Below are positions 25,185 to 64,000 of a stretch of 64,000 nt of DNA, piece after piece; position 1 is the stretch's first letter; the number at the start of each line of letters is the position of its first letter. The DNA comes from Catellatospora methionotrophica (GTDB lineage: Bacteria > Actinomycetota > Actinomycetes > Mycobacteriales > Micromonosporaceae). Location of the stretch: contig NZ_JAAOTJ010000001.1 of assembly GCF_011297335.1 (NCBI RefSeq), positions 1,054,001 through 1,118,000 of the forward strand, in the 5' to 3' direction. Position numbers and translations under genes: made by a program. Under the pieces are notes generated by a model. That model made no database searches, had not been told where the DNA came from, and saw only the letters and a program-made list of their open reading frames with translations.

Positions 25185-25285
25185 TATTTCCACTTTGGAT
25201 GATCGCCGCCACCCGATCCGGTATGTACGCGCGTTGTACGCGACCGTTGCTACCTTCACCGACCACACCCTCAAGGAGATGGTCG

Positions 25286-46552: not shown

Positions 46553-46785
46553 CGGTCCCCCAGCGCGGTGCTCACCAGGTCGGACAGCTGCCCGACGTCG
46601 CCGACGGCCAGGTAGGTGCGCAGGTCGAGCTGTACGCCGAACTCGTCCTCGATGTCGGTGAGCAGCCGCAGCGCGGCCAGGCTCGTCCAGTTGGCGAGGC
46701 TGTGGAAACTCGACGCCGGGGAGATGCCGGGCAGCTCGGTGACCCGCTCGACGAGTTCGACGACGGTGCCGGTGACATCAGACAT
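46549..46785 (-). CDS. Acyl carrier protein of FkbH type (WTSL motif)
   Basis: The 78-aa protein has the carrier-protein helix pattern, with the probable phosphopantetheine Ser in NWTSLAALRLL near residue 34. The usual Asp before Ser is Thr, as in the other small ACP of this operon. It starts 8 bp inside the end of the FkbH gene, so it probably receives the unit loaded by that enzyme. Carrier partners of FkbH proteins are commonly separate small ACPs like this. Confidence 0.85.
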   Translation of the reverse strand: MSDVTGTVVELVERVTELPGISPASSFHSLANWTSLAALRLLTDIEDEFGVQLDLRTYLAVGDVGQLSDLVSTALGDR

Positions 46786-48655
46786 GGGCAGGTTCCTTCC
46801 ACTCCAGGGTGATCCATGCGGGCACGGCCGGGACGGCCGCGCTGAGGTCGAGGGTGTACGCGGTGACCCCGTCGGTGTCGGCGCCCTCGGTGAACGTCTC
46901 GACCAGCGACGCGGCGGCCTTGTTGCGGTCGCCGCGCCGGTAGTCGGCGGCGAGGGTGTCGGCGGCTGCGCCACGGGCGAGCGCGGCGAGGTGGGCGAGC
47001 ACTGCCTGCTCGACGCCGCGGGAGAACACCCGGCAGCTGAGCACGAAGTTCTCGATGGTCCACCGGTCGCCTGCCGTGGCGACCCAGGCCGCGCCGACCA
47101 GGCCCTCGCGGCCGAACCGGTCGGCCACCTCGAACCCGAGCACGAGGTGGTCGGCGGAGGCGGCCATCTCGCGGGTGCGGGGTTCGCCGTGGGCGCGGGG
47201 GTGCAGGTTGAACTGGTTGGTGCGCGCGGCGAGCTGCACGATCCGGGGAAGGGTGTACTCGTCGGCGGGGGTGACCGTGACGGTGAGCCCCAGCCCGGCG
47301 AGGTAGTCGCCGGTGGACACGAACGACGCGGCGAACTGCTCCCGGTCGGCGCGGGCGCGGTACATGCCGGTGCGCTCGCGGTCGGTGGCGGTCGTGGCCA
47401 GCGCGCCGAAGAACTGCGGTTCCAGGACGGCGGCGGCGTGCCCGGCGGGGTCGCCGCTGAGCCTGACCACGCGGACCTCGGGGATCTCCCGGGCGACGAG
47501 TTCGCATTCGAAGGAGCTGTCGTCGACGAACACGACGCTGTCCAGGCCGATGTTGAGGGTCTGCACGATCTGGCGGATGTTGTGGTCCTTGCGTCCCCAG
47601 TTCGCGACGGTCGCCACGAAGTCGTCGGGGCGCAGCGTGAGTTCGGGGTGGGCGGCCAGCACGGCGTCGACGTTGGCCTGCTCGTTCTTGCTGCACACGG
47701 CGAGCAGCACGCCCTGGCGGCGCAGCGCTTGCAGGCTCTGCTGCAGGTCGGTGTAGCAGTTGCCGGGGTAGGCGCCGCCGACCTGGATGCCTTCGGGGCC
47801 GTCGTCGCCGAGTACGCCGCCCCACAGGGTGTTGTCGAGGTCGACGATGGCGAGTTTGGCGGACAGGCCCGCGGTGACGCGGCAGAACGCGGCGGCTTCG
47901 CGGGCGTACGCGGCTTCGGCGCCGATGGTCCAGGCCATGCTGGCGAAGCGGTAGAGGCGGTCGTCGCGTACGGGGCCAGGGTGGTCGGCGAGCAGCGCTT
48001 CGAAGTCGAGGACGTGTACGGCCGGGTGCCGGGTCGGCAGGTCGAGCAGGTGCTGGTTGACGGCGCGCCAGGCGCGGCCGAGGGCGGCCCGGCCGCCGTA
48101 GCTGATGACGCGGCGCTGCTGGTTGCGGGCCAGCGGCACGGTGTGCAGGACGACGGTGCCGGTGGTGCGCTGGGTGAACCCGGCGACGGCGTGCTCGATC
48201 ATGTCGAGGCGGTGCCCGGTCGCGTCGGTGAGGGTGGTCAGGTCGGTGGGGTCCCAGTCGCGGGGCAGCAGCGCCCCGTCGTGCAGCAGGCACAGCGTGA
48301 CGTCGGGGGCGAATGCGGCCAGGTCCGAGCCGGGGTCGCTGAGTTCGACCAGGAGCTGGTCGAAGCCGCAGACGTGCAGCTGTGGCGCGATCCCGGCGCG
48401 CAGCAGTTCGGCGTGCAGGATCGGGGCGATGTTCTCGGCGGTGAACGTGGCCGCGACCGCGACCCGCAGCGGCCGCACGGTCCGGCCGTCGGGGGTGAAC
48501 CGGACCGGTGCGACGGCGGCCAGGCCGCGGCCCGCTTCGCGCAGCGCCTTGGGGGTGCTGAGGGTGGCGAGGTCGGCGAGCAGGTCAGGGTCGGCGGGTG
48601 CGGCCGGGTCGCGCAGCGCGCGTACGCGGGCCAGGACGTCGTTCTCGGTGGTCAT
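46778..48655 (-). CDS. FkbH-like HAD-IIIC protein
   Basis: The 625-aa protein has three parts: an N-terminal domain (about 60-230) starting VAVAATFTAENI, a HAD domain with the intact DxDxT-type loop VDLDNTLWGG near residue 272, SKNE and VFVDDSSFE, and a GNAT-like C-terminal domain (about 430-600; DRFGREGLVGA). FkbH proteins take 1,3-bisphosphoglycerate and load glyceryl units on an ACP for methoxymalonyl or tetronate biosynthesis. The intact catalytic residues suggest this is the active FkbH of the pathway. No methyltransferase or glyceryl-ACP dehydrogenase gene is visible nearby. Confidence 0.9.
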   Translation of the reverse strand: MTTENDVLARVRALRDPAAPADPDLLADLATLSTPKALREAGRGLAAVAPVRFTPDGRTVRPLRVAVAATFTAENIAPILHAELLRAGIAPQLHVCGFDQLLVELSDPGSDLAAFAPDVTLCLLHDGALLPRDWDPTDLTTLTDATGHRLDMIEHAVAGFTQRTTGTVVLHTVPLARNQQRRVISYGGRAALGRAWRAVNQHLLDLPTRHPAVHVLDFEALLADHPGPVRDDRLYRFASMAWTIGAEAAYAREAAAFCRVTAGLSAKLAIVDLDNTLWGGVLGDDGPEGIQVGGAYPGNCYTDLQQSLQALRRQGVLLAVCSKNEQANVDAVLAAHPELTLRPDDFVATVANWGRKDHNIRQIVQTLNIGLDSVVFVDDSSFECELVAREIPEVRVVRLSGDPAGHAAAVLEPQFFGALATTATDRERTGMYRARADREQFAASFVSTGDYLAGLGLTVTVTPADEYTLPRIVQLAARTNQFNLHPRAHGEPRTREMAASADHLVLGFEVADRFGREGLVGAAWVATAGDRWTIENFVLSCRVFSRGVEQAVLAHLAALARGAAADTLAADYRRGDRNKAAASLVETFTEGADTDGVTAYTLDLSAAVPAVPAWITLEWKEPAHV

Positions 48656-48671: not shown

Positions 48672-51260
48672 TCACACCTGCAGCAGCGTGCAGATCCAGT
48701 GCATGCCGCTGCTGGTGCTGGTCAGTGCCACCACGTCGCCGGGGTTCAGTTCCCCGGCCGCCTGTAGGCGGCGCAGGGTGACGAGCTGGTCGGCGCAGCC
48801 GATGTGGCCGTGGTCCAGGGCCGCTTCGACGTTGGTGTGCTGCAGCGCTATGTCGAGGTCCTTGGCCAGGTCGGCGAGCTGGCGGCCGTTGTCGTTGAAG
48901 TGGATGACGCGGGCGATGTCGGCGCGGGTCAGCCCGGCGGTGGCGCAGGCCCGGTCGACGACCTCGCGGCTGCGCGCGCGGATCATCGACACGAACCGGT
49001 ACATGGCGCGTACGTCGCCGTTGAAGAACGCGTCGAGGCGGTCCTGCGGGTTGCGTACGTGCGGCTGGTCGGGCTGCCCGGCCAGGAACGGGTTGGCCGC
49101 GCCGCCGACGTCCATGCGCATGAAGTCGGCGTACGTGCCGTCGGAGATGGTCTCGGTGGTCAGCCAGCGGTAGCCGCCGTGGTCGCGGCGCAGCACCGCC
49201 GCGGCGGCCCCGTCGGAGTAGATGCTGGTGTTCATCGCCATGCGGTTCCAGTACGGTTCGGCGACCCGGTTCGCGCCGATGAGCAGCGCGGTCCGGTAGC
49301 CGGGGTGCAGGGCGAACTTTCCGGCGACCAGGTCGAACGCGGCGACGCCACCGCCGCAGGCCTGGTTGACCAGGACCGCTTCGGCGCGGTGTGCGCCCAG
49401 CCGGGCCTGGGTGGCCGCGGCCGGGTCCCAGTACAGGTATTCGGCGAGGTCGGCGATGGCGAGCACGACCAGGTCGACGTCCTCGGCGGCGACGCCGGCC
49501 TCGGCCAGGGCCTGGCGTCCGGCGTCGGCGGCCAGGTCGGTCAGGCCGACGCCGTCGGGGGCGCGGTGGAACGTGCGGTATCCCCAGCCGCGGATCCGGT
49601 CCAGTTCGTCGGTGTACGCCGGGGCGAGCTCGGCGACCTGGGACGGTTCGGGCAGGGCCTGTCCGATCGCGACGATGCCGAACGGCACCGCGGCGCGCTG
49701 CGGGGCGCGGGCCGGGGCGGCCTGCTCCCAGGTGAGCGCGTGCAGCGTGCCCGCCTGCCCGGCGGCGGTGCCGGGCAGGCCGCGCAGGAACGTCAGCGCG
49801 GCCCCGTTGTGCGCGGTCTCCCGGTAGCGGAACACGACGTCGGCACCGTCGGCGCGGGCCGTGATCTCGGCGAGGACCGCGTCCTCGACCTGGCGGCCCA
49901 GCACCGGGCAGGACAGCGAGAACAGGTCGACGGTGCACACCCCGTCGGCGCGGCGCAGCCCGACCGCGCCGCTGAGGCCGTAGTCGCCGAACCGGTCCCG
50001 TACCGAGACGGCAAGGACTTCGCCGTCGTAGCCGGCGATGGCGGCGGCGTCCTGGTCGTTGCCGAGGGTGAAGTCCTTGGCGCGGGCCACCACCTCGGCG
50101 ACCTTGTCCAGCCGCCCGGCCGCCGGGTGGACGTCGACGACGACGTTGAGGTTGGCGACGAAGTCGTCCAGCGACACCGGCGACGGCGTGGCCTCGACCG
50201 GGGCCGCGACCACCACCGCCGGGCCGGTGACCAGGGGTGCGGGCCGGTCGTACAGGCCCGCGGCGGCCAGTGTCGCGGGCCACGTCTCCGGCTGCGGCCC
50301 GAGCAGCACCGCCCGGCCGGGCATCAGGTCCGCGTCGGTGGTCACCAGGACCGCCGAACCTTGCGGGACGCCGAGCGACGTGGCGACCTCGGCGAGCCGT
50401 ACGTCGGCCGGGCCGGAGTGGATCGCGGTCGCCGCGGCGTGGGTGACCAGTTCGGGGCAGTGCGCGGCCAGCCCGGTCCAGACGGCGTGGTCGGTGGCGC
50501 ACACGCCGATCCGGGTGCCGGAGCGGGCCAGCGCCCGCAGCGGTCCGCGCAGGGCGGCGGCGGGCGCGCCGGACAGGGTGTCGGCGTCGACCACGACCGC
50601 GCGTACGCCTGCCCCGTACCGGCCCGCTAGCAGCCGGGCGAGCTGCCCGCCGAGGTGGGCGAACAGCTCCTCGGTGTAGGGCACCTTCGCGAGGGCGAAC
50701 ATCGCCGGGTGGTGGGCGCGGGCCGCGCCGACGTCGCGGATCGCGTCCTCGGCGTCGGCGAGCAGGACCCCGGGCCGCCCGGCGAGCTGGGCCCGGACGG
50801 CTTCGCGGGCCTGGGTGGCCAGGGCAGCTGTTCCGGCGACGGCGGCGGTGTCGCCGACGCCGAGGTCGCGTTCGTCGGGCAGGGCGGGCAGGACGAACAC
50901 GAGGGTCGCCTGCCAGCGCCCGGCGGCGGCCAGGGCCGCGTCGGCGATGTCGGCCAGGTCCGGGGTCCAGCGGGGTCCGGCCGGGCCGAGTTCCTCGAAC
51001 CGCGGGGCGGTGACCAGCACGTCGGGTGCGGCGGCCGCGGTCTCGCCCTGGTCGTCGAGGCACTGGCGGATGATCTGATCGAACGGTCCGACGTGGAACC
51101 GGGCGGGCAGCCCGGCCTGGTGCAGCGGCAGGCCGAGGTACGGCACGAGCTGGTCGGCGGTGTAGCTGGCCAGCAGGCTGATCCTCAGCACCGCCGGGGC
51201 GGCCTCGCGGACGGCCTGTTTCCAGGCCGAGCGCTGCTGGTGCGGGGTGAGGGTGCTCAT
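48672..51260 (-). CDS. Fusion of a degenerate FkbH-like protein and a KAS III-like domain
   Basis: The 862-aa protein joins an FkbH-like half to a KAS III-like half. Residues 1-515 follow FkbH: N-terminal domain (ISLLASYTADQL), a HAD-like core and the C-terminal DRFGDYGLSGA / LSCPVLGRQVEDAVL region, which closely mirrors the FkbH gene downstream. The HAD site is weakened: VVDADTLSG replaces DLDNTLW, and the lysine and DDS motifs are lost. Residues ~520-862 have a KAS III fold with the active Cys in NQACGGGVAAFD near 633 and GHIGCADQL near the end. That C-H pattern resembles acyltransferase-like KAS III enzymes more than FabH. It probably condenses or transfers an ACP-bound unit. Confidence 0.88.
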   Translation of the reverse strand: MSTLTPHQQRSAWKQAVREAAPAVLRISLLASYTADQLVPYLGLPLHQAGLPARFHVGPFDQIIRQCLDDQGETAAAAPDVLVTAPRFEELGPAGPRWTPDLADIADAALAAAGRWQATLVFVLPALPDERDLGVGDTAAVAGTAALATQAREAVRAQLAGRPGVLLADAEDAIRDVGAARAHHPAMFALAKVPYTEELFAHLGGQLARLLAGRYGAGVRAVVVDADTLSGAPAAALRGPLRALARSGTRIGVCATDHAVWTGLAAHCPELVTHAAATAIHSGPADVRLAEVATSLGVPQGSAVLVTTDADLMPGRAVLLGPQPETWPATLAAAGLYDRPAPLVTGPAVVVAAPVEATPSPVSLDDFVANLNVVVDVHPAAGRLDKVAEVVARAKDFTLGNDQDAAAIAGYDGEVLAVSVRDRFGDYGLSGAVGLRRADGVCTVDLFSLSCPVLGRQVEDAVLAEITARADGADVVFRYRETAHNGAALTFLRGLPGTAAGQAGTLHALTWEQAAPARAPQRAAVPFGIVAIGQALPEPSQVAELAPAYTDELDRIRGWGYRTFHRAPDGVGLTDLAADAGRQALAEAGVAAEDVDLVVLAIADLAEYLYWDPAAATQARLGAHRAEAVLVNQACGGGVAAFDLVAGKFALHPGYRTALLIGANRVAEPYWNRMAMNTSIYSDGAAAAVLRRDHGGYRWLTTETISDGTYADFMRMDVGGAANPFLAGQPDQPHVRNPQDRLDAFFNGDVRAMYRFVSMIRARSREVVDRACATAGLTRADIARVIHFNDNGRQLADLAKDLDIALQHTNVEAALDHGHIGCADQLVTLRRLQAAGELNPGDVVALTSTSSGMHWICTLLQV

Positions 51261-51505
51261 ACGGCGGCTCCCTTGCCGCGTAGCAGGTCCCGCAGGAAGC
51301 CGATCGACGGCACGTCGCGGACCTCCTCGTACGCGAACGACACCGCGTAGACCTCTTCCAGGGTCACGACCAGCTGCAGGTGGCGCAGGCTGGTCCAGGC
51401 GGGCAGGGTGGCGGGGGTGTCGGCGTCGGTGACGGTCCCCGGGTCGAGGTCCAGCACGTCGGCGATCAGGTCGTGCAGCTGGGCGGGTTCGGCGACCGTG
51501 GTCAT
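51257..51505 (-). CDS. Acyl carrier protein of FkbH type (second WTSL copy)
   Basis: This 82-aa protein carries AWTSLRHLQLVVTLEE near residue 38, with Thr before the probable phosphopantetheine Ser, exactly as in the ACP at the far end of the FkbH genes. Both its ends overlap neighbours by ATGA, with the MFS gene before it and the FkbH/KAS III fusion after it. It may be the partner of that fusion. Confidence 0.83.
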   Translation of the reverse strand: MTTVAEPAQLHDLIADVLDLDPGTVTDADTPATLPAWTSLRHLQLVVTLEEVYAVSFAYEEVRDVPSIGFLRDLLRGKGAAV

Positions 51506-52890
51506 CGGGCCGCCCCCGCCTCGACGGGCTGCTTGGCCTCGACCGGGGTGTCGGTGGCCGGGTCGGGCTCGGCTGCCGCGGTCTCCGGTGCGACGTCGGG
51601 CATGATCGTCTCGATGCGGCGCAGGCTGGGCGTCAGGAACGACACCACGGCCAGCAGGGTGCCGAGCACACCGATGGCGACGAAGACCAGGCCGATACCG
51701 CCGACCGAGCCGGTGCCGACCACGCCGCCGAACAGCTTCGCGCCCGTCTCTCCCTCGGCCATCCACGGGACGATGACGTACTCCAGCAGCGGCCCGGCGA
51801 TCAGCGTCGCGATCGGCACGGACAGCTCCTCGACGAACTGCCGGGCGGCGAAGACGCGGCCCTGGTAGTGCGGCTCGACCTTCTCCTGCCAGACCGAGGT
51901 GGCGTAGCCGTCGATGACGGGGATGCACATGTGCACCACGATCAGCGCGAAGCCGAGCACGAGCAGCACGTCGGAGATGCCGTACACGATCCGGCCGATG
52001 ACGCTGAACGCGACGGTGGCCCACAGCACGTAGCGCATCTTGTCGCGGGGGGTCTTGAGCAGCGCGACCAGGATCGTGCCGCCGATGCCGCCGATCGCGC
52101 CGGTGGCCAGCACCAGCGCCAGGGCGTCGGCGTCGTCGCCGGTGCGCTCCAGCACCATCGGGCGCAGCAGCAGCCAGCCGATGGACGCCAGGATGTTGAT
52201 GACGATCAGGAAGATCTCCAGGTTGCGCAGCGGGCGGCTGCGCATGATGAAGGTGAACCCGAGGCGGCAGTCCTGCCAGAACGTCGACGGTGCGGTGTCG
52301 GCCGGTCGCGGCGGGATCGCCGGGATCGCGATGAGCAGCACCGATCCGATGGCGAACAGGTAGGACAGGCTGTCCAGGGCCAGCACCAGCTCGATGCTGG
52401 TGGTGGCGAGCAGCAGCGCGGCCAGCAGCGGCGCGAACAGTTCCGGGGTGGTGCGGACCGCGAACATCATGGCGTTGGCGCGCGGGTAGTTGCCGCGCTC
52501 CATCATCAGCGTGATCGTGGCCTGGAACACCGGGACCTGGAACGCCACGAACGCGCCGGTGACGAAGTTGAGCACGTACAGCTGCCACAGGTTCGCGGTG
52601 TTCGTCAGGAACAGGGCCAGCAGCACGAGCGTGGCCAGCGCGGTGCCGACCTCGGCGAGCATGAGGGTGGTGCGGCGGTTCCAGCGGTCGATGATCGCCC
52701 CGGCGATGGGGCTGAACACGACCGTCGCGGCGAACGCGAAGAACAGCGTGAGGGTGAACTGGGTGGTGCTGCCGGTCTGGTCCCACACCCAGACACTGAC
52801 CGCGAAGTTGGTCATCCGGGTGCCGAGCACGGACAGGAACTGTCCGACCCACAGCACGGAGAAAGCCGCGAATCCGGTGGGACGTCGCAT
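51502..52890 (-). CDS. MFS exporter of the right-hand operon
   Basis: The 462-aa protein has about 12 hydrophobic segments and the loop DRWNRRTTLM after the second helix, as in MFS drug exporters. A charged C-terminal tail of about 45 residues is rich in Pro, Ala and Glu. The ATG shares one base with the stop of the large NRPS (TAATG). It likely exports the NRPS/PKS product. Confidence 0.9.
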   Translation of the reverse strand: MRRPTGFAAFSVLWVGQFLSVLGTRMTNFAVSVWVWDQTGSTTQFTLTLFFAFAATVVFSPIAGAIIDRWNRRTTLMLAEVGTALATLVLLALFLTNTANLWQLYVLNFVTGAFVAFQVPVFQATITLMMERGNYPRANAMMFAVRTTPELFAPLLAALLLATTSIELVLALDSLSYLFAIGSVLLIAIPAIPPRPADTAPSTFWQDCRLGFTFIMRSRPLRNLEIFLIVINILASIGWLLLRPMVLERTGDDADALALVLATGAIGGIGGTILVALLKTPRDKMRYVLWATVAFSVIGRIVYGISDVLLVLGFALIVVHMCIPVIDGYATSVWQEKVEPHYQGRVFAARQFVEELSVPIATLIAGPLLEYVIVPWMAEGETGAKLFGGVVGTGSVGGIGLVFVAIGVLGTLLAVVSFLTPSLRRIETIMPDVAPETAAAEPDPATDTPVEAKQPVEAGAAR

Positions 52891-55800
52891 TATCGTGAGG
52901 TTCCTTTCTGGAGGGGAGCCGAGGCCTGGTCGAGGAGACCGGTCAGCCGTGCGCAGAGCTCGTCGAGGAACGCCTGCGCGGTCTCGGCGGTGTAGACGGT
53001 GGTGCTGTAGCCGACGTCGAGCCGGAGCCGACCGGCGACGATCACGCCGCCGACGTCGAGGTCGTACGGCCACCGGCCGGCGCCGTCGTCGGTGTCGCCG
53101 TAGGGGGCGTCGCAGACGTCGAACAGGTCGTCGGCCTGGGAGACCTCGTCGAAGCCGAAGTTGCCCATGTAGTTGAGCGCGATGCGGGGCTGCACGAGTT
53201 CGCCCAGCTGCGCGCGTACGGCGTCGTCGGTGGTGGCGTAGCGCAGCACGCCGTAGCCGATGCCGTTGTCGGGGACCTCGGCCAGCTGCGCGGCGACGTG
53301 CGCGGCGCGTGCGGCCGGGTCGCCGCCGTCGGGCAGGGCCAGCAGCACCGGGTACATGACCTGGAACCAGCCGGTGGTCCGGTTGAGGTCGATGTCGGCG
53401 AACAGGTCCTCGCGCCCGTGGCCGGTGGTGGCCAGCAGGCATTCCCGGCCGCCGGTGCGGGCCGCGACGGCCTCGGTGACCGCCCACATGATCAGGTCGC
53501 GGACGCCGAAGCGCAGCCGCCGCACCACGTCGTGCAGGCCGTCGGTCTGCTCGGTGGTCAGCGTGGTGCTGAGCATCGCCCCCGCGGCCAGGGTGGTGAC
53601 CCCGGCCAGGTCCGGCGGGACCATGGTCGCCTGCTCGGCGGTGCGGCCCAGCCAGTACGGCAGCTGGGCGGTCATGTCGTGGGTGGACAGCCGCTGCGCC
53701 CAGGTGCTGTACGCGCTGGTCCTGGGCGGCAGGTGCGGCTGCTGTCCGGCGTCGAGCTGGGTGCACAGCGTGCGCAGGTCGCCGAGCAGCAGGTCGCGGG
53801 AGATCGCGTCGACCACCAGGTGGTGGGTGATGATCAGGATCCGGTCCGGCCGGTCCGGGCCGGTCGCGAAGTGCAGCACCCGGCACATCGGCCCGGCGGT
53901 CGCGTCCAGGGTCGGCTGCGCGGCGGCGGCCAGCGCCTCCATCGCCGCGTCCTGCTCGGCCGTGGTCCGGCCGGTCAGGTCGTGGCTGACGAACGGCACC
54001 GCATCGGAGCCTTCGGCGTGGTGCTGGCGCAGCGTGCCGTCCTCACCACGCACGAACCGCAGCCGCAGCGACGCGTGGTGCTCGGCCAGCAGCCGCACCG
54101 CCTCGCCCAGGTGTTCGGCGGCGATCGGGCGCAGCACGTCGAGGTAGTAGGGGTGGTTGAACCACGACGGGTTGTCCATCGTGGCGGCGACCTCCTCGAA
54201 CCACCACAGCTGCGCCGGGGTCAGCGGCACCGGCCCGGCGGCCAGGTCCGTGCACACCGCCGCGGGCGCGGCGGTGTCGCGGTCCAGGTCCAGTTCGGCG
54301 ATGGTGCGCCGCTCGGTCAGCTGCCGCGCCGACAGCGTGATGCCCGCCTCGGCGGCGTGGAACGCGACCGTGATGGCCAGCAGCGAGTCGCCGCCGAGTG
54401 CGTAGAAGTCGTCGTGGATGCCGACGTCGGTGGTGTGCAGGACCTCGGCCCAGATCGCGGCCAGGGCCCGTTCGCGGTCGGTGCGCGGTGCGGCGACCTG
54501 TCCACGGGCCGATCGCCTGCGCCCGGTCCGGACCGCGTCGGCGATGGCGTCGGCGGTGGACAGGTCCTCGGCGAGTTCGGCGAGCAGGTCGGCGGCCAGC
54601 GGCGCGGGTGCGGCCGGGTGTGCGGCCGGGGCGTCGAGCTGCCACAGGTGCGCGGTGGGCAGGGCCGGGTCGAGGGTGAGCGCGCCGGGCGGCGGGCTGC
54701 CGACGCGTACCGCGCCGACGGTCACCAGCGCCGCGAGCTCCGGCAGGAACGGCCGGGTGCCGAGCACGACCTCGCGGCCGTGGGAGAGTTGTTCGCGCAG
54801 CACCGCGACCAGTTCCGGCCCGAAATCGGCGGGGTCTACAGTCACCGTGCCCACCTGCGGGTGGTGTCGCCGCCGGGCGAGCCGGGCCACCGTGGTGGCC
54901 AGCGCGGTCTCGAACATCTCGGTGTACGCCGCGCCGTCGCGCCCCGGGTACGGGTCGGTGACGCCGTAGCGGGCCGCCCACCCGTCCATCGCGATCACCC
55001 GTACCGCGGGCTGGGTCGCGGCGAACGCCGCCAGCCGGTCGGTGAGCCCGCCCAGCACACCCGCCCAGCGCGGCCCGGTGTGCTCCGCCGAGGCGGGACA
55101 CACGCCGATGACCAGCTCCGTGCCGGTCCGTGCCTGGTGCGCGTCGACCGCGACAGCCAGCTCCGACAGCGCCCGCTCCCAGACGGTCACCGCCACGGGC
55201 AGCGAGACCGCGCCCGGCAGCAGGTCCTGCCAGCGCAGCAGGACCACGTCCAGCACCGTGTCCCGGAACGGGCCCTCGCCGTCCAGTAGCGGGCGGCGCA
55301 CCTGCCCGGCGGGCGTGGCACGCACCGTCAGGCCGGGCTCGCCGAGCACCTGCGACCAGAACCGCAGCGTCGGCTCCAGCGCCCGGACCGGGAACGACGT
55401 CGCCAGCCCGACCACGTCGCCGACCTGCACCGGCGCGGCCGCCTCCACGGCCAGGACCGTGTCCGGGGCGGTGACCAGGTCGGTCAGCAGCCGGCCGAAC
55501 CGGTCGACGACCGCTTGGGCGCGCTCGGCGCTGAACAGCTCGGCCGAGTACGTGAAGTCGGCCTCCAGCAGGTCCCCGACCCAGTCGAGGGTGAACAGCA
55601 CGTCGAAGTCCGCACCGGCCGCGCCGACCGGCAGCGGCTCCACGTCCAGGCCCGGCAGGCGCGGCGGCTCCTCGGCGGCGTCGGCGTAGTTGAGCACGCA
55701 GCGCAGCGAGTGCCGCGACGAGTCGCGGGGCAGCCGCAACGCCTCCATGATCTTCGGGAACGGCACGCGCTGGTGGGCCTGGGCGTCCTTGACGGTCGCG

Positions 55801-58800
55801 TGCAGGCGGCGCACCAGCCGCCGGAACGTCAGCCCGCCCGACACGTCCAACCGCAGCGGCAGCAGGTCGGCGAAGCACCCGATGACGCCGCTGAGCTCGG
55901 CCCGGTCCCGGCCGCTGGTCGGCATGCCGATGACCAGGTCGGACTGGCCGGACTCCTGCTGCAGCAGCGCCGCGAACACGGTCAGCAGCACGCTGTACGG
56001 GGTGACCCCCTCGGCCCTGGCCAGCTCCCGGACCGCGACCCCGACCTCGGCGGAGAACATCCGCCCGGCCCGGCCCGCGACGTCGCCGTCCGCACCGGAC
56101 GGGCTGTCGCCGGGCAGCTCCACCGGGGACGCCGCATCGCGCAGCCGGTCACGCCAGTACGCCAGGTGCGCGTCGACCTGTGGACCGGACAGCCACTGCT
56201 GCTGGTCGTAGGCGAAGTCGCCGTACTGCACGGCGACCTCCGGCAGCGGTGAGGGCAGGCCCGCGGTGTACGCGTCGTACAGCACCGCCAGCTCGTCGAG
56301 GAAGATCCCCCACGAGGTGCTGTCGCAGATGATGTGGTGCATCCCGACCAGCAGCTGGTGCTCGTCCGGCCCGGAACGCAGCACCTGCACCCGGACCAGC
56401 GGCCCGTCAGCCAGCGAGTACGCGAAACCCGCGTGCGCGTCGACCGCACGCTGCAGGTCGGCGGCCGACGCGATGTCGACCGGCTCGCACCAGGCGGTCA
56501 GCTCGGCGTGCACCACCGGCCGGGGCAGGCCCCGGTGCTCGGCGTACGTGGTGCGCAGCACCTCGTGGCGGCGCACGATCTCGGCGACGGCCCGGCGCAG
56601 CACCTCGACGTCCAGCGGCCCGCGCAGTGTCGCGGCGAACATCGTGTTGTGCCGGGCGTCGTCGCTGTCGAGCTGGCTGGTCGCCCAGAGCCGCTGCTGG
56701 ATCGACGACGCCACCGGCACCGCGCCGGCCGGGGCGGGCCGCAGCACGTCGGCCTCCTGCCCGTCGGCGGCGTCGACGACCGCGGCCAGCGCCGCCAGGG
56801 TCGGGTTGGTGAACAGGGCGTACAGCGACACCTCCCGGCCGAACTCGCGGCGCAGCGCCGACAAAAGCTGGGTGGCCAGCAGCGAGTGCCCGCCCAGGGC
56901 GAAGAAGTCGGAGTTCGCGCCGACCTGCTCCACCCGCAGCACCTCGCGCCAGATCACGGCCAGCCGCTGCTCGGTGTCCGTGTTCGGCTCGACGAGCTGC
57001 TCCGCGCTGACCGCGGTGGCGCGCGGCGCGACCCGTTCGGCGATCTCGGCCGGGTCGGCCAGCCGCTCGGCGGCGTACGCGGCCCGCTCCGGTTCGGCCT
57101 GCGGCGTCGGCAGGCGGCGCACCGCGATGGCGGCCAGCGCCGCGAAGGAGACCGGCGGGTACGGGATGTGCCCGAGCTCGTCGGTGACCGCGTCGTGGGT
57201 GATCTCGTACGGGTGCTCCTCGGCCCAGTCGACGGTCACGCCCGCGACGGTGTGGGCCAGCGCGGCGAGCCGGTCGTCGAGCCGCGCGAACAGCCCGGAC
57301 AGCCCCCGCTCGGCGGCCGCCGGGGACGCGGGGCAGCGCAGCAGGGCCAGCGGCGCTGCCGTGCGGGCGCGATACCCGGCGACGGCGGCCTCGAAGTCGC
57401 GCATCGCCGCGTCGGCGACGGCGGCCGGGTCCGCGCCGGTCTCGGCCCGGCGCAGCCAGTCCTCCCAGCGCAGCAGCCCGACCGTCGCGGCCGCGTCACC
57501 GGGGGCGAGCAGATGTTGCACGAGCTGCCCGTACGGGGCGAGCCGCACCGTGGTCGGGGCCTGGGCGAAGTCGAGCCAGCAGCGCAGCGGGTCGGCCAGC
57601 AGGTCGGCGGTGAACGTCGCGCCGACCACGACCTGCGGCCGGGCCGTCGACGCGAGCTGCCACAGCGCCGTGTCGGGCGCGGCGACCATCTCCGACAGCA
57701 CCGCCGAGGTCCGCTCGGCCAGGCGGGCCACGGTGCCGGGCAGGTACAGGTCGGCGTTGTAGTCCAGCACCAGCTCGTCGCCGCCGGACCGGCGCGACAG
57801 GGTCACGAACAGGTCGAAGTCGGTGAGCTGGTTGTCGACCGGGACCGGCGTGAACCGGACCCCGGCCGCGTCGCGCTCGGCGGCACCGGCGTCGGTGACC
57901 GTGAACATCACCTGGAACAGCGGGTTGATGCCCGGATCGCGCAGCGGCGCGACCTCCTCCACGACCCGCGCGTACGGGGCGTCCTGGTGCCGGTACGCCT
58001 CCCCGGTGCTCTGGTGCGTACGCCGCACGGCCTCGCGGACCGTCGGCTGCCCGGACAGGTCCAGCCGCAGCACCAGCATGTTCGCGAACGAGCCGATCAG
58101 CGGCTCCAGCTCGGTACGCGGCCGCCCCGCGCCCGGCGTACCCACGACCAGGTCTTCCTGCCCGGTGGTGTGGGCCAGGGCCGTGGTGAACCCGGCCAGC
58201 GCGACGGCGTTGAACGCGACCCCGGACTGCTGGGCCAGCGACGCCATCGCCGCCGACAGCGTCGGGGGCAGGGCCAGTACGTGCCTGCCGCCACGGTGGG
58301 TCTGCACCGGCGGGCGGCGCAGGTCCGGGCGCGGCGTGCTGGTCAGCGGCGCACCGGCGAGCCGGTCCCGCCAGTACGCCAGGTGCCCGTCGAGGGCCGC
58401 CAGCGCGCCGGGTTCGCGCTGGGCGCGGACGTAGGCGGCGAAGTCGGTCCGCAGCGGCGGCAGGTCGGCCGGGACACCCTGGGCGAACTGGCGGTAGAAC
58501 GCGACCAGCTCGGTGGCGAACACGTCACCGGACCAGGCGTCGTAGACGATGTGGTGCACGACGAGCAGCAGCCGGTGCCGGTCGTCGGCCAGGGCCAGCA
58601 GGCACGCGGCCAGCTGCGGCCCGGCGGTCAGGTCGAACGGGGCCAGGCCGTGCTCGACGGCGGTCTGCTCGGCCCGTGCCCGCTGCTGCTCGGCGGGCAG
58701 CCCGCGCAGGTCCACCACCGGCAGGGCGACGTCCACGTCGGACAGCACCCGCTGGTACGGGCCCTGGTCGTCCTCGGCGAACGCGAGCCGCAGCGACTGC

Positions 58801-59051
58801 TGGCGGGCCACGACGGCGTTGAGCGCCGCGCGCAGCGCGCCGGTGTCCAGCGGGCCGTCCAGGTCCAGGGCGAACGGCACGTTGTAGACGGCGGTGCCCG
58901 GCTCCATACGATCGAGGAACCACAGCTGTTCCTGGGTGAACGACAGCGGCAGCCGCTGCGGGCGCGCCTGGCGTGCGGCCAGGCGCTGGCGTAGCAGCTC
59001 ACGCTGCTCGGCGGTGAGGTCGGTCAGCTGGGCTGACATCTCCTGGGTCAT
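52890..59051 (-). CDS. A-domain-less NRPS: C-X-PCP-C-X-PCP-E-like
   Basis: The 2053-aa protein begins after GGGGGAGCC at an ATG. C1 spans about 35-465 (HHIVYDAWS near 165); X1 about 470-645; PCP1 has GGHSLL near 720; C2 about 780-1200 (HHIICDSTS near 905); X2 about 1205-1475; PCP2 has GGDSLL near 1553; the last domain, about 1605-2040, has HHLVVDAIS. No A-domain motif (A3 loop, YxTGD, terminal Lys) occurs anywhere. X1 starts VVVGATFTADLLADPLRCWL and resembles the N-terminal part of the FkbH proteins of this operon; X2 (ATSFPVRALEPTLRFW) is a longer homologue. The last domain has epimerase-like motifs (GHGRE, TTGWFQVMYP, GIGYG, LNYMGNF), but Thr stands at the usual catalytic Glu before GHGRE. 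Its PCPs must be loaded in trans. Confidence 0.93.
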   Translation of the reverse strand: MTQEMSAQLTDLTAEQRELLRQRLAARQARPQRLPLSFTQEQLWFLDRMEPGTAVYNVPFALDLDGPLDTGALRAALNAVVARQQSLRLAFAEDDQGPYQRVLSDVDVALPVVDLRGLPAEQQRARAEQTAVEHGLAPFDLTAGPQLAACLLALADDRHRLLLVVHHIVYDAWSGDVFATELVAFYRQFAQGVPADLPPLRTDFAAYVRAQREPGALAALDGHLAYWRDRLAGAPLTSTPRPDLRRPPVQTHRGGRHVLALPPTLSAAMASLAQQSGVAFNAVALAGFTTALAHTTGQEDLVVGTPGAGRPRTELEPLIGSFANMLVLRLDLSGQPTVREAVRRTHQSTGEAYRHQDAPYARVVEEVAPLRDPGINPLFQVMFTVTDAGAAERDAAGVRFTPVPVDNQLTDFDLFVTLSRRSGGDELVLDYNADLYLPGTVARLAERTSAVLSEMVAAPDTALWQLASTARPQVVVGATFTADLLADPLRCWLDFAQAPTTVRLAPYGQLVQHLLAPGDAAATVGLLRWEDWLRRAETGADPAAVADAAMRDFEAAVAGYRARTAAPLALLRCPASPAAAERGLSGLFARLDDRLAALAHTVAGVTVDWAEEHPYEITHDAVTDELGHIPYPPVSFAALAAIAVRRLPTPQAEPERAAYAAERLADPAEIAERVAPRATAVSAEQLVEPNTDTEQRLAVIWREVLRVEQVGANSDFFALGGHSLLATQLLSALRREFGREVSLYALFTNPTLAALAAVVDAADGQEADVLRPAPAGAVPVASSIQQRLWATSQLDSDDARHNTMFAATLRGPLDVEVLRRAVAEIVRRHEVLRTTYAEHRGLPRPVVHAELTAWCEPVDIASAADLQRAVDAHAGFAYSLADGPLVRVQVLRSGPDEHQLLVGMHHIICDSTSWGIFLDELAVLYDAYTAGLPSPLPEVAVQYGDFAYDQQQWLSGPQVDAHLAYWRDRLRDAASPVELPGDSPSGADGDVAGRAGRMFSAEVGVAVRELARAEGVTPYSVLLTVFAALLQQESGQSDLVIGMPTSGRDRAELSGVIGCFADLLPLRLDVSGGLTFRRLVRRLHATVKDAQAHQRVPFPKIMEALRLPRDSSRHSLRCVLNYADAAEEPPRLPGLDVEPLPVGAAGADFDVLFTLDWVGDLLEADFTYSAELFSAERAQAVVDRFGRLLTDLVTAPDTVLAVEAAAPVQVGDVVGLATSFPVRALEPTLRFWSQVLGEPGLTVRATPAGQVRRPLLDGEGPFRDTVLDVVLLRWQDLLPGAVSLPVAVTVWERALSELAVAVDAHQARTGTELVIGVCPASAEHTGPRWAGVLGGLTDRLAAFAATQPAVRVIAMDGWAARYGVTDPYPGRDGAAYTEMFETALATTVARLARRRHHPQVGTVTVDPADFGPELVAVLREQLSHGREVVLGTRPFLPELAALVTVGAVRVGSPPPGALTLDPALPTAHLWQLDAPAAHPAAPAPLAADLLAELAEDLSTADAIADAVRTGRRRSARGQVAAPRTDRERALAAIWAEVLHTTDVGIHDDFYALGGDSLLAITVAFHAAEAGITLSARQLTERRTIAELDLDRDTAAPAAVCTDLAAGPVPLTPAQLWWFEEVAATMDNPSWFNHPYYLDVLRPIAAEHLGEAVRLLAEHHASLRLRFVRGEDGTLRQHHAEGSDAVPFVSHDLTGRTTAEQDAAMEALAAAAQPTLDATAGPMCRVLHFATGPDRPDRILIITHHLVVDAISRDLLLGDLRTLCTQLDAGQQPHLPPRTSAYSTWAQRLSTHDMTAQLPYWLGRTAEQATMVPPDLAGVTTLAAGAMLSTTLTTEQTDGLHDVVRRLRFGVRDLIMWAVTEAVAARTGGRECLLATTGHGREDLFADIDLNRTTGWFQVMYPVLLALPDGGDPAARAAHVAAQLAEVPDNGIGYGVLRYATTDDAVRAQLGELVQPRIALNYMGNFGFDEVSQADDLFDVCDAPYGDTDDGAGRWPYDLDVGGVIVAGRLRLDVGYSTTVYTAETAQAFLDELCARLTGLLDQASAPLQKGTSR

Positions 59052-59067: not shown

Positions 59068-59247
59068 TCAGCGGACGCTGAGCGGACGCAGGTCCGTCCA
59101 CACGCGCTCGATGTGGTCGAGGCACTCCGGCTGGGTGCCCTGGTATCCGGCGTCGCGCCAGCCGGGAGCGTTCTCCCGGTCGGCGGGCCAGATCGAGTAC
59201 TGCTCCTCGTGGTTGACGACCACCCGGAAAAGCTGCTGCTCGGTCAC
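59068..59247 (-). CDS. MbtH-like protein
   Basis: This 59-aa protein has [19 protein letters not shown] and a closing [10 protein letters not shown], the core MbtH pattern with conserved Trp residues. MbtH proteins bind and activate A domains. The only A domain of this operon is in the first visible gene at the right edge, so that is the likely partner. The GTG start overlaps the PKS stop (GTGA) and follows AAGGA. Confidence 0.93.
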
Positions 59248-62216
59248 GACAGGTCCTTCCGCTGCGTCTGGTTCAGTTCGTGGGCGACCTGCTCCGGCGA
59301 CATCGCCGCGATCTCGGCGAGCAGGTCGGCAAGGTCGTCGGTGGGCTGCTGCGGCCGCTCGGCGAGCAGGCCGGTGACCGTGGCCGCGAGGCCCGCGATC
59401 GTGGGCGTCTCGAACAGGGCGCTGGTGGGCAGGTCGACGCCGAACGCCTCCCGGATCCGCGCGACGATCTTCGTGCCGAGCAGCGAGTGCCCGCCGAGGC
59501 TGAAGAAGTCCTGGTCCGGGCCGATCTGCGCGATGCCCAGCAGGTCGGCCCAGATCTGGTGGACGACCTCCAGCGGCGTGCCGCGCGGCCCGGCCGTGAC
59601 CACGGCCGGGGCGGTCTCGGCGGCGAGCGTGCCACCGGCCTCGACCCAGTGCCGCTCGCGCGCGAACGGGTACGTCGGCAGCGGCACCCGGCGGCGGCCG
59701 GTCGGGTCGCCGAGGTCGGCGTCGACCCCGGCCAGCCACATCCGGCCCACGGCGGCGGCCATCGCGATCCGGTCGTCGCCGGCGTTCTTCGGGCCCGGCA
59801 GCGACGGGGTGCTGCGCTGCTCGGCCTCGGGGTGCTGGCGGGCCAGGGTGGTCAGCGCCGCCCCGGGACCGACCTCCAGCAGCAGGTACGGCCCGGCCAG
59901 CAGCCGCCGTACGCAGTCGTCGAAGCGGACCGGTTCGCGCAGTTGGCGGGCCCAGTACTTCGGGTCGGCGGCGTCGTGGTCGGACAGCCACTCCCCGGTC
60001 ACGTTCGACAGCACCGGCAGCCGCGGCGGGTGCGCCGGGAACCGGGCCACGTGCTCGGCGAACTCGGCCAGGACCGGTTCCATCATCGCCGAGTGGAACG
60101 CGTGCGAGGTGTGCAGCGGCCGGGTCGGCACGCCGTCGGCGGCCAGCGCGGCCGCGAACGCCTCGACCTGCGCGGCCGGTCCCGACACCACCGACAGCGT
60201 CGGGGCGTTGGCGGCGGCCAGTTCCACGCCGAGGGGCAGCCGCTCGGCCAGCCGGGCGGCGGGCAGCGGCACCGACAGCATCGCGCCGGGTGGCATCGAC
60301 TGCATCAGGCGGCCGCGTTCGGCGATGATCGCCAGCGCGTCGGGCAGGGTGAACACCCCGGCCAGGCACGCCGCGACGTACTCGCCGATGCTGTGCCCGA
60401 CCGCCGCCGCCGGGCGTACGCCCCGGTGCATCCACAGCCGGGCCAGCGCGTACTCGACCGTGAACAGGGCGGGCTGGGTGATCCGGGTCTGGCGCAGCAG
60501 CGCGTCGTCGCGGTCGCGGTAGAGCACGTGCCGCAGGTCCACGCCCAGCAGCGGCGTGAGCAGGTCGGCGCACTCGTCCAGGTGCCGGGCGAACTCCGGC
60601 TCGGTGCGGTACAACTGCTCGGCCATGCCCGCGTACTGCGCGCCCTGCCCGGGGAACAGGAACGCCACGGTCCCGTCGGTCAGGTCGCCGGTGGCGGTGT
60701 CCAGGGTGGCCGGTGCCCCGAGCGCGGCGACGGCCTGCTCGGCGGTGCGGCAGGCCACGGCCAGCCGGTGCTCGAAGCGGCGGCGGGTCTCGCGCAGCGT
60801 GTAGGCGACATCGCCCAGGTCGGCGTCGGTGCCGGACAGGTGCTCGCGCAGCCGGTCGCGGGCGTCGTCCAGAGCCTGCGGGGTACGCGCCGACAGCACG
60901 AGCACGTGCTCGGCCGCCGCCGACGGCGTGACCTCGACGGCGGGCGGCTGCTCCACGATGACGTGGGCGTTGGTGCCGCCGATCCCGAACGAGCTGACCC
61001 CGGCGCGGCGCGGCACCCCGGTCACCGGCCACGACTCGGGCGCGGTGTTGACGTACAGGCTCCCGCCCGCCAGGGCCGGGTGCGGCTGGGTGAAGTAGGG
61101 GCTGGGCGGGACGACGCCGTCGCGTACCGCCAGGCAGGCCTTGATCAGGCCGGTGACGCCGGCGGCGACGTCGAGGTGGCCGGTGACGGCCTTGACCGAG
61201 CCGAGCGCGCGCCGGCCGGTGCCGAACACCTCCTGCAGCGCGGCGAGTTCGACCTGGTCACCGAGGGCGGTGCCGGTGCCGTGCGCCTCCAGGTAGCCGA
61301 TGGTCGCCGGGTCGACGTCGGCGGCCCGCAGCGCGGTCCGGATGACGTCGGCCTGCCCGTCGACGCTCGGGGCGGTGTAGCCGACCTTGGCCCGGCCGTC
61401 GTTGTTGACCGCCGAACCCTTGATCACAGCGTGGATCGTGTCGCCGTCGGCGAGCGCGTCGGCCAGCCGCCGCAGCGCGACGACCGCGACGCCGCTGCCG
61501 CCGACGGTGCCGGTCGCGGCCGTGTCGAACGGGCGGCACACCCCGTCGCGGGACATGATCCCGCCCGGCTCGTACCGGTACCCGGCCGCCAGCGGCAGCC
61601 GCAGGTACGCCGCCCCGGCCAGCGCGACGTCGCACTCCCCCGCCAGCAGCGCCTGACCGGCCAGGTGCACCGCGACCAGCGACGACGAGCACGCCGTCTG
61701 CACGGCCACGGCCGGGCCGCGCAACCCCAGGTGGTACGCGACCCGGGTCGCCACGGCGTCCTTGTCGTTGGCCACCGACATCTCGTACTCCGACCCGGCC
61801 CGCTCCCCGGCGGGCAGCAGGTGGTGCAGCAGGTAGCCGCTCAGCGCGGTCGCGGCGTACACGCCCACGGACAGCTCGTCGACGTCGGCGACGTGCCCGG
61901 CCGACTCCAGCGCCTGCCACGCGCACTCCAGGAACAGCCGCTGCTGCGGGTCGATCAGCCGGGCGTCACGCGGCGAGTAGCCGAAGAACCCCGCGTCGAA
62001 CCGGTCCGCGCCGTCCAGCACCCCGAACACCGGCACGTAGTCCGGGCGGGTGCGCTCGGCCTCGGGCACCGACCCGGCCAGCTCCTCGGCCGTGAACCGG
62101 GTCGACACCGGCTTGCCCGCGAGCACGTCGCGCCACAGCCCGGCCACGTCGCCGCTGCCGGGGAACCGACCGGCCAGGCCGACTACCGCGAGGTCGAGTC
62201 CACTGTCGTCGCTCAT
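59244..62216 (-). CDS. Type I PKS module KS-AT-ACP
   Basis: The 990-aa protein starts with an ATG that overlaps the stop of the A-PCP gene. The KS (about 8-430) has the active Cys in TACSSSL near 174, HGTGT, and GHLDVAAG. The AT (about 540-830) has GHSIGE near 606 and HAFHS near 703, the pattern of malonyl-CoA specificity. The ACP has GGHSLLGT near 910. There is no KR, DH or ER, so one malonyl extension leaving a beta-keto group is expected, on the amino-acyl unit from the A-PCP protein. An N-terminal docking region is not evident. Confidence 0.95.
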
Positions 62217-64000
62217 CGTCTCCCCATCTCCGCCCGCACCCGCCGGGTGCGCGCTGCCAGTGCCGCGCGGCCGTCGACCGCCGGGGCCGTCCGCGCCGCG
62301 GCGGGGGCCGCGGTGTCCTCGTCGAGGAACCGGGCCAGCCGCGCCACGGTCGGGTACCGGAACAGGTCGACGGCGGCGATCTGCACGCCGAGCGCGTCCC
62401 GTAGTCCCGCGTGGACCCGGACCAGCAGCATCGAGTTGCCGCCCAGGTCGAAGAAGTTGTCGTCGGCGCCGATCCGGTCCAGGCCCAGCACGGCCCGCCA
62501 CACGTCGGCGACGGCCTGCTCGGTCGCCCCGCGCGGGGCCCGGTACGGCGTGCCCAGCTGCGGCCGGGCCGCCGTCGGCGCGGGCAGGGCCCGCTGGTCG
62601 AGCTTGCCGTTCGGGGTCGTCGGCAGGTCGGCCACCTCGACGAACGCGGCCGGGACCATGAACTCGGGCAGGTCGCGCAGCAGCTCGGTGCGCAGCGCGT
62701 CGGCGCTGACCCCGCCCGGCCGCTGCGCCACCACGTATCCGACGAGGCGTTTGTGTCCGGGCTGGTCCTCGCGGACGACGACCGCGCAGCGGGCGACCCC
62801 GGCGCAGTCGCGCAGCCGGGCCTCGACCTCGCCGGGCTCGACCCGGTTGCCGCGGATCTTCACCTGCCCGTCGCGGCGGCCCAGGATGTCCAGGCTGCCG
62901 TCGGCCCGCCAGCGCGCCAGGTCACCGGTGCGGTACAGGCGCGCGCCCGGCTCGGCCGCGTACGGGTCCGGCACGAACGCGGCCGCGGTCAGCGCGGCCC
63001 GGCCCAGGTAGCCCCGTCCCACGGCCGCCCCGCCGATGAACAGCTCCCCGGCGACGCCGATCGGCACGGGCCGCATCCGCGCGTCGAGCACGTGGATGCT
63101 CGCCCCGGTCATCGGCGTGCCGATCGGGACGGCCGGGCCGCCGGTGTACCGCCCGCCGGTGACCATCACCGACGTCTCGGTCGGGCCGTACGTGTTGAAG
63201 AAGGCGCGGCCGTGCTGCCACGCGGCGGCGACGTCGACCGGGCAGCTCTCCCCGCCGACGGTCAGCACCCGCAGCTCGGGAACCTGCGCCGGGTCCATCG
63301 CCTGCAAGGCGACCGGCGGCACGTCGAGCATCGTGATGCGCCGCCGGGCCAGGGTGCGCGCCAGGTCGGGGCCGGGCATCCGGTCGTGGCGGGCCACGAT
63401 GTGCAGCTCGGCGCCGGCGCACAGGGCGGTGAGCATGTCCGACACGGCCGCGTCGAAGCCGGGTCCGTGGAACTGCAGCACCCGGTCGCCGGCCGTGATC
63501 GCGAGCAGGTCGTCGATGGCGTCGGCGAGGTTGCTCAGCCCCCGGTGGGTGCTCACCACACCCTTGGGCCGACCGGTGGAACCGGACGTGTAGATCAGGT
63601 ACGCGGCCTCGTCGGGACCCGGCGTGACATCCGGGCGCGGCGCGTCCGGCAGGTCCTCGACGCGCAGCAGCACCGGCCCGGCGGGTACCGCGGGCGCGGT
63701 CGCCGCGTCGGTGAGCACCAGCACGGCCTCGGAGTCGGCGAGCAGGTAGCGGATGCGTTCGGCGGGCAGGTCGGGGTCGATCGGCACGTACACGGCCCCA
63801 GCGGCGAGCACACCGAGGAACGCCGCTACGGCCTGCGGGCCTGGTCGCAGCCATACCGCGACGGGCGTCTCCGGTCCGTCCACGGCGTCGTAGACCGCAG
63901 CGGCGATGCTGCCCGCCAAGGTGTGCAGTTCGCCGTAGGTCGTCCGCCGATCGTCGCAGTCGACGGCGATGCGGTCCGGGTCGATCGCGGCGATCCGGTC
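62213..64000 (-). CDS. NRPS A-PCP protein, N-terminus off the right edge
   Basis: The frame is open to the last base, so the start is outside the window. The A domain has A3 IYTSGSTGRPKG, A5 NTYGPTETS, A7 YRTGDLARW, A8 KIRGNRVEPGEVE and A10 NGKLDQR. The pocket keeps an Asp at the 235-like position (GFDAAVSD) and has another acidic residue (MLDVPP), which suggests an amino-acid substrate with a polar or basic group, tentatively. The PCP has GGNSMLLV instead of GGDS; the serine is present. A helical tail ends [13 protein letters not shown]. It acts as loading or first module for the PKS that follows with an ATGA overlap. What precedes the A domain, perhaps a C domain, is unknown. Confidence 0.9.
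   Translation of the reverse strand, partial: DRIAAIDPDRIAVDCDDRRTTYGELHTLAGSIAAAVYDAVDGPETPVAVWLRPGPQAVAAFLGVLAAGAVYVPIDPDLPAERIRYLLADSEAVLVLTDAATAPAVPAGPVLLRVEDLPDAPRPDVTPGPDEAAYLIYTSGSTGRPKGVVSTHRGLSNLADAIDDLLAITAGDRVLQFHGPGFDAAVSDMLTALCAGAELHIVARHDRMPGPDLARTLARRRITMLDVPPVALQAMDPAQVPELRVLTVGGESCPVDVAAAWQHGRAFFNTYGPTETSVMVTGGRYTGGPAVPIGTPMTGASIHVLDARMRPVPIGVAGELFIGGAAVGRGYLGRAALTAAAFVPDPYAAEPGARLYRTGDLARWRADGSLDILGRRDGQVKIRGNRVEPGEVEARLRDCAGVARCAVVVREDQPGHKRLVGYVVAQRPGGVSADALRTELLRDLPEFMVPAAFVEVADLPTTPNGKLDQRALPAPTAARPQLGTPYRAPRGATEQAVADVWRAVLGLDRIGADDNFFDLGGNSMLLVRVHAGLRDALGVQIAAVDLFRYPTVARLARFLDEDTAAPAAARTAPAVDGRAALAARTRRVRAEMGRR

Follow-up and report, generated by a model that had tools for sequence, protein, structure and literature searches.

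Tandem C-X-T modules with FkbH-like domains in the adenylation position define a family of actinobacterial NRPS clusters

In the non-ribosomal peptide synthetases (NRPSs) of vioprolide, cystomanamide and corramycin, an FkbH domain stands between a condensation (C) and a carrier (T) domain, replaces the adenylation (A) domain and loads glycerate. This and the other literature comparisons made here draw on the portions consulted of PMC8949500, PMC10099666, PMC5318452 and PMC3625739. In this work, we focused on a 2053-aa NRPS of Catellatospora methionotrophica, encoded in a 64,000-nucleotide stretch of contig NZ_JAAOTJ010000001.1 (positions 1,054,001 to 1,118,000, i.e. the window), in which two domains, X1 and X2, occupy the place of the A domain in consecutive modules (C1-X1-T1-C2-X2-T2-C3). 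As in the three systems above, a domain of the FkbH family lies between C and T instead of A; unlike in them, as far as their descriptions in these sources allow comparison, this domain lacks both the HAD phosphatase core and the GNAT-like part, and two such modules stand in tandem. The initial annotation could point to no characterised example of such modules, a statement superseded by the C-FkbH-T modules that these sources describe. By title or start of abstract, no paper on HAD-less FkbH domains in NRPSs was found in the open-licence literature, in which no product of such clusters was identified either.

Other relatives share different parts with the window protein. Foxicin FoxBII (...-C-FkbH), as described in the portions consulted, likewise has C followed by FkbH, in actinobacteria. 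Six proteins (L116 and L118-L122), which we infer to be foxicin-like from their length and domain order, have C domains close to C2 in our tree, on a long branch; unlike the window protein, they carry an intact HAD motif (DGD[ED]TLW, 6/6) and a single FkbH. HAD-motif-bearing C-FkbH proteins were also found at L085 and L092. Stand-alone FkbH-T proteins of the same bacterial family (e.g. G010 and G075) have an N-terminal domain (N-domain) falling in the X group of the tree; they differ from the window protein by the presence of the HAD motif and GNAT-like part and by the absence of a C domain. BF1531 (PDB 3slr) has a fold like that of the SGNH-like part of X1 and of X2, in contrast to the window protein it possesses a phosphatase domain with DLDNT and is not an NRPS.

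Pfam recognised three condensation and two PP-binding stretches in the 2053-aa protein and nothing further up to E = 10, any AMP-binding likeness being absent, while NCBIfam (E up to 0.01) returned NRPS-wide models and a C-terminal TIGR01720 without an adenylation model. The initial annotation had proposed two C-PCP modules in which X replaces A and no A motif occurs, and these searches bear it out. When excised (X1, about aa 469-660; X2, about aa 1209-1490), both domains gave zero matches to Pfam and NCBIfam up to E = 1, TIGR01686 included. A degenerate A domain was rejected for lack of an AMP-binding match in Pfam (E 10 for the whole protein, E 1 for the excised domains) or NCBIfam. The reading frame has a codon bias of coding type, with GC contents by codon position of 0.77/0.52/0.95.

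X1 and X2 are homologous (BLASTP, E = 1e-11, 32 % identity). The window encodes two other FkbH-type proteins, F1, which is intact, and F2, whose HAD part is unrecognisable, and plain BLASTP links them only faintly to X1 (E = 0.010 with F1, 0.76 with F2) and X2 (E = 0.19 and 2.5, respectively). A profile was built from the N-domains of 21 carrier-fused FkbHs, with G249, G015 and L091 excluded as devoid of the HAD motif; it scored 118.9 bits with X1, 69.3 with X2, 54.4 with F2 and 33.5 with F1; among the 587 open reading frames (ORFs) of the window, the next best score after the X and F proteins was 4.1 bits. Judged by these profiles, the likeness of X to FkbH N-domains is far above chance, yet unspecific for the two nearby FkbHs. 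On sequence grounds, X1 and X2 are thus FkbH-N-like domains sitting where an A domain is expected between C and T.

Structural models, which the initial annotation had proposed for comparison with FkbH and SGNH folds, agreed with this assignment. AlphaFold2 gave a pLDDT of 88.8 and a pTM of 0.81 for X1, and 83.4 and 0.78 for X2, the X2 alignment including intact FkbH rows that may bias the model towards an FkbH-like fold. In Foldseek searches of the PDB, FkbH-like BF1531 ranked third by E-value for X1 (TM 0.56), with GDSL esterases at TM of about 0.5; the two top E-values belonged to an unrelated RpiR domain (two chains, TM only 0.32). For X2, 3slr was best (TM 0.51, 297 alignment columns), a match length that, in the model, is enough for the SGNH-like domain plus part of the HAD domain. 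A sequence search of alignment A2 against the PDB did not retrieve 3slr and gave a single unrelated match (E 0.0075); alignment A3 retrieved it at 2e-24 through the HAD columns of intact rows, and for that reason this match was not counted as support. In alignments A2 and A3, which do not include every row, R and D of a [LV]LRW[EQA]D motif were invariant; in X2 of L. xinjiangensis, W replaces the R.

The nucleophile of SGNH hydrolases is the Ser of a GDS motif. This motif is absent from X1 and from the aligned intact carrier-fused FkbHs, which have A-[TS]-F-[TV] or similar there, and the initial suggestion of a hydrolase was rejected in spite of the GDSL-esterase-like fold. A plain C-T linker was rejected as well, given the confident models, the fold matches and a separate X gene in one genome. 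Neither of the two findings that would have undermined the initial annotation, a degenerate A domain or an ordinary linker, was thus obtained.

Phylogenetic analyses placed the origin of X elsewhere than in its neighbours. In a tree of 84 N-domains (the L087 F2 row, containing a run of N, was omitted and letters X were removed from rows), X1, X2, FkbH-T and C-FkbH-T were separated from F1 and F2 (97/94). A copy of nearby F1 or F2 is therefore not supported: the likeness to the two nearby FkbHs, pointed out in the initial annotation, is true and weak, and X groups with carrier-fused FkbH. Many X branches are long, notably those of X2, and the exact place of single X2 rows is unsure. A second tree, built from 55 C domains without the partial one of L092, united C1, C2 and the C domains of the six intact actinobacterial C-FkbH proteins in one group (93/99), apart from the C domains of the clusters' own A-T-C-A-T modules; the C domains of L085 and L091 fell outside it. 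Taken together, the two window modules almost certainly descend from C-FkbH-T (glycerate-loading) NRPS modules.

The catalytic parts of FkbH are missing throughout the X domains. The FkbH HAD motif DxDxT[LV] was found in 0/22 C-X-T rows (L084 stops within X1 and L081 within X2) as compared with 23/28 other rows, and was also absent from the second contig of Micromonospora MH99. A looser pattern had no match at the HAD place of C-X-T rows and hit chance strings elsewhere only, including DPDGVE in the X2 tail of G177, where the assigned motif place reads VVEAGAE. A GNAT library matched none of the 22 C-X-T rows. HAD relics without the motif were nevertheless detected in 9/18 X tails scored (19.5-56 bits, shuffles at most 5.6), i.e. 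in X1 tails of HK10, M. lupini, G177, Streptosporangium and S. diastatochromogenes (19.5-31 bits) and in X2 tails of Streptosporangium and three Streptomyces (22-56 bits); in another 3/18, the score was a few bits over their own shuffles. Two-profile hhalign joined the window X2 tail and its orthologues to the relatives' relic tails (E 1.3e-10), and these to intact HAD (E 1.6e-13). From the model and this transitive profile match, the window X2 tail is a probable HAD-domain remnant. Because motif-less HAD relics persist in the X tails of relatives, the window protein looks like an advanced stage of graded HAD loss. A further degenerate FkbH was noticed in G015 (L052 9313-10689), a 458-aa FkbH-T protein with no GNAT part and a broken HAD motif (AECDGVLWDG).

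To find other C-X-PCP proteins, as the initial annotation had recommended, 300 genomes of the bacterial family, the named GTDB collection and 394 genomes of the class were searched. After removal of duplicates (G246 = L072, G204 = L073 and G242 = L084+L104, each counted once), 20 C-X-T-C-X-T clusters were obtained, window included, two of them only partly in view. They belong to Micromonospora and relatives (the window, G048, G186, G177, Micromonospora HK10, M. lupini and Micromonospora MH99, on two contigs), Streptosporangium KLBMP 9127, five Lentzea, an actinomycete metagenome-assembled genome, Amycolatopsis eburnea, Saccharothrix ALI-22-I, and the Streptomyces strains S. diastatochromogenes ATCC 12309 (cut by a contig end), IBSBF 2953, 150FB and humi. 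BLAST missed the second X of Amycolatopsis and Saccharothrix, which a profile recovered (19.9 and 57.2 bits); both clusters lack the third C. G459 (C-X in a 2286-aa frame, piece only) and hits in G162 and G113 contig C90 were left outside the 20. The Lentzea orthologues L075, L076, L077, L079 and L082 have a tandem pair of T domains behind X2.

X has been maintained by selection in the pairs of proteins compared. In five pairs, the ratio of nonsynonymous to synonymous substitution rates (dN/dS) was 0.23-0.35 for X1 and 0.20-0.42 for X2, next to 0.16-0.23 for C1, 0.20-0.34 for C2 and 0.11-0.31 for C3; X is under purifying selection in all five. Intact carrier-fused FkbHs share 32 near-invariant columns. 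In 19/19 clusters scored, 20-29 of these are conserved in the better X copy (the threshold of 20/32 having been chosen after seeing the scores); the poorer copy conserves 7-20 in 16/18 clusters and 23-24 in G177 and Streptosporangium. The better copy is X1 in 13 clusters and X2 in five, one cluster having no scored X2. As the clusters are related, these represent few events rather than 19 independent ones; the pattern is compatible with one good X sufficing. The T domains kept their Ser in every T1 and T2 in view (three Streptomyces T1 read GGHSF), both T domains are present in all clusters fully in view, and HHxxxD was retained in C1 and C2 with the sole exception of one C2.

The genes common to these clusters encode A-T modules, KS-AT-T, C-X-T-C-X-T-(C*), MFS, MbtH, a discrete acyl carrier protein (ACP) and F2, with a KASIII-like domain (K3) and F1 in part of them. 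Neither gene order nor gene content is constant; the Micromonospora clusters, for instance, have their A and KS modules on the opposite strand, at a distance of about 20 kb. These modules are absent from the piece fetched for the actinomycete metagenome-assembled genome, and MbtH and MFS were unmatched in three Streptomyces clusters. An ACP and an F2-type protein were found near 19/20 clusters, the piece of the 20th ending too early. Among the 300 family genomes, full-length F2-type matches occurred in 7/7 C-X-T genomes identified, and a split one in G249.

The HAD part of F2 is itself degenerate: its motif is broken in 18/18 rows reaching that place, and its HAD profile scores were -2.4 to 10.1 bits (17 rows) as compared with 74-153 bits for F1 (12 rows), which retains DLDNTL in 12/12. 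The S-C pair of the GNAT-like domain was present in 40/40 aligned rows, i.e. 18 F2, 11 F1 and 11 FkbH-T or C-FkbH-T. In the window, F2 is fused to K3 (48672-51260, minus strand); Lentzea has both parts in separate frames.

A different arrangement was found in G249, where X is a separate 410-aa protein (SGNH-like part) reading DPLRT at the HAD place. Its gene overlaps that of a discrete ACP by 13 nt if the latter begins at its ATG, with an F2-like gene about 3 kb further, whose product has T-C in place of S-C, and T-C* and T-C-A proteins upstream. X can therefore exist without covalent C and T, and this arrangement argues for a role of X with carrier proteins rather than as a mere linker.

Descent, HAD motif absence, selection on X, F2/ACP co-occurrence and the stand-alone X by an ACP were computed here. 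The mechanism that we favour, with a probability of about 0.5 when taken whole, is that X is a platform descended from FkbH, that T is charged in trans and that F2 is the likeliest loader. In this scenario, the SGNH-like N-domain of the FkbH in ancestral C-FkbH-T modules would survive as X after loss of both the GNAT-like transferase and the phosphatase core (HAD). X would no longer form a thioester and may recognise or position a carrier protein as a non-catalytic platform. T1, T2 and perhaps the discrete ACP would be charged in trans, presumably by F2, which is co-conserved, has a degenerate HAD part and keeps a GNAT-like domain whose Cys is invariant. The chain delivered by the upstream KS-AT-T would then travel over T1 and T2 through the action of C1 and C2. 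In all likelihood, X is not catalytic as FkbH. Cis loading of the glycerate type is not expected because the HAD and GNAT-like parts are lost, and loading in trans is the most likely route, since the T Ser is kept and HHxxxD persists in all C1 and C2 except one; we regard it as rather probable. The loader role of F2 is a tentative assignment. A variant in which X and F2 together make up a phosphatase-free split FkbH, loading T1, T2 and the ACP with a non-glycerate acyl group, or with 3-phosphoglycerate whose phosphate would be retained for later elimination, seems unlikely; if true, a split FkbH would be a route for charging NRPS carriers without an A domain, AT or active FkbH.

Several observations weigh against this favoured mechanism. 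The choice of F2 draws on co-occurrence only, and G254 contains F2-type fragments and no X match; a D-x-D pair persists at the old HAD motif in 11/18 F2 rows, so that F2 may, judging from its sequence, retain residual HAD function. Stand-alone X occurs in one genome only, and intact F1, present in 12 clusters, could supply glycerate in trans. Six of the 18 X tails had HAD scores about level with their shuffles or lower, and the window X2 tail itself scored -0.3 bits against the HAD profile, with a direct hhalign probability of 4.5 %. In many clusters, and above all in Lentzea and Amycolatopsis, X2 has undergone strong decay, which also fits slow loss, and C2 of Amycolatopsis has HQ instead of HH.

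Three other explanations were weighed. X could be a mere structural stand-in for A, with T1 and T2 charged in trans by the A domains of A-T-C-A-T or from elsewhere, which we consider unlikely. According to the portions consulted, A domains that are missing or dead can be complemented in trans. MbtH is present in many clusters, a free-standing A gene occurs alongside CoA-ligase-like genes at 28.7-35.7 kb of the window, and G177 has an additional A domain beside F2. However, the clusters do not consistently include a free-standing A, since at E < 1e-8 the only two A domains in M. lupini (100 kb), HK10 (75 kb) and G186 (60 kb) are those of A-T-C-A-T; for M. lupini, genome-wide A-domain matches agree, among the matches listed. 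The many A domains elsewhere in these genomes could still serve T1 and T2, but a stand-in role leaves the stand-alone X gene and the constant F2 unexplained. That the X modules serve as relays or are dying out, nothing being loaded and the chain only passing through, or C1, C2 and C3 performing another reaction on it, appears quite improbable: X decay is graded across clusters, many C1 and C2 have a residue other than G after HHxxxD and C3 lacks the Glu of epimerization (E) domains, but this explanation has to face the retained T domains with their Ser, the near-complete retention of HHxxxD and the purifying selection on X described above.

Finally, intact F1 might load glycerate onto T1 and T2 in trans with X as its docking site. 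Its HAD motif is kept throughout, and in known systems FkbH puts glyceryl on ACPs or T domains (portions consulted). F1 was, however, not found beside F2 in six clusters with F2 in view, some fetched pieces ending soon after, and no TIGR01686 match over the cut-off exists in 3/10 genomes searched, i.e. G177 (complete, two contigs), G695 and G696, which makes glycerate loading by intact FkbH unlikely as a general rule. Moreover, K3, F1 and the ACP resemble, by description and in kind and size, the tetronate set AbyA1 (KASIII), AbyA2 (FkbH) and AbyA3 (ACP), because of which F1 may have its own job; C-X-T modules are not described for tetronate sets in the portions consulted, and F2 is extra here. 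We therefore hold this explanation to be decidedly doubtful.

As no above-cut-off match to Pfam or NCBIfam was obtained in the X domains tried (window, L074 and one of L086), annotation with these libraries will display such proteins as C-T-C-T-C with gaps, and their product may be mispredicted. The family also represents a natural dissection of FkbH into parts for carrier recognition, transfer and dephosphorylation.

The C-terminal C3 resembles an epimerization domain, in which the catalytic Glu sits in EGHGR. C3 of the window reads TTGHGRE where EGHGRE is expected, as well as HHLVVDAISR, and the motif is degenerate, [TV][TA]GHGR, in C3 of 12 named loci, five G rows and the window (only named loci showing C3 with the motif were counted, and two of the five G rows duplicate named loci). 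Since the Glu is lost in the window and in relatives alike, C3 probably lacks epimerase activity, as far as its motif tells. Features of the locus are listed in Table 1.

Table 1. Domains of the C-X-T-C-X-T protein and neighbouring genes in the window
Feature	Coordinates	Strand	Remarks
C-X1-T-C-X2-T-C* NRPS, 2053 aa	52890..59051	-	uninterrupted ORF
C1 condensation domain, aa 31-465	57657..58961	-	HHIVYDAWS
X1, aa 469-660	57072..57647	-	FkbH-type SGNH-like N-domain, without HAD and GNAT-like parts
T1 carrier domain, aa 691-765	56757..56981	-	Ser in GGHSL
C2 condensation domain, aa 776-1205	55437..56726	-	HHIICDSTS
X2 SGNH-like part, aa 1209-1400	54852..55427	-	copy more decayed than X1
X2 tail, aa 1401-1490	54582..54851	-	probable HAD remnant (model and transitive profile match); DPADF vs DxDxT of intact FkbH
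T2 carrier domain, aa 1526-1595	54267..54476	-	Ser in GGDSL
C3, E-like C-terminal domain, aa 1606-2050	52902..54236	-	TTGHGRE
F1, intact FkbH	46778..48655	-	TIGR01686 273 bits; DLDNTL
K3, KASIII-like domain	48672..49685	-	fused to F2
F2, FkbH part, aa 1-515	49716..51260	-	SGNH-like, unrecognisable HAD (1.2 bits, DADTL), GNAT-like with S-C
Discrete acyl carrier protein, 82 aa	51257..51505	-	named by eye; conserved beside F2
MFS exporter	51502..52889	-	approximate start
MbtH-like protein	59068..59247	-	named by eye
KS-AT-T polyketide module	59244..62228	-	directly upstream; upper end approximate
A-T module	62213..63919	-	reaches near window edge; matches relatives' A-T beside KS-AT-T

Outside this cluster, the window contains a second biosynthetic set (15070-39483), several of whose genes were named by eye, comprising ABC exporters, a sulfotransferase-like gene, an MbtH-A-T-C fusion, a free A domain, and amine oxidase, CoA-ligase-like, PaaK-like and ATP-grasp-like genes; genes of this set have weak matches near the relatives' clusters. 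Also by eye, two secreted proteins that begin like M23 peptidases (HLHFEIR, HLHYEV) and contain short repeats were noticed at 25199-26620 and 41391-42695 (both plus strand), together with a secreted metallopeptidase-like protein at 43278-45191 (plus strand) bearing HELGHSVGGLADEY.

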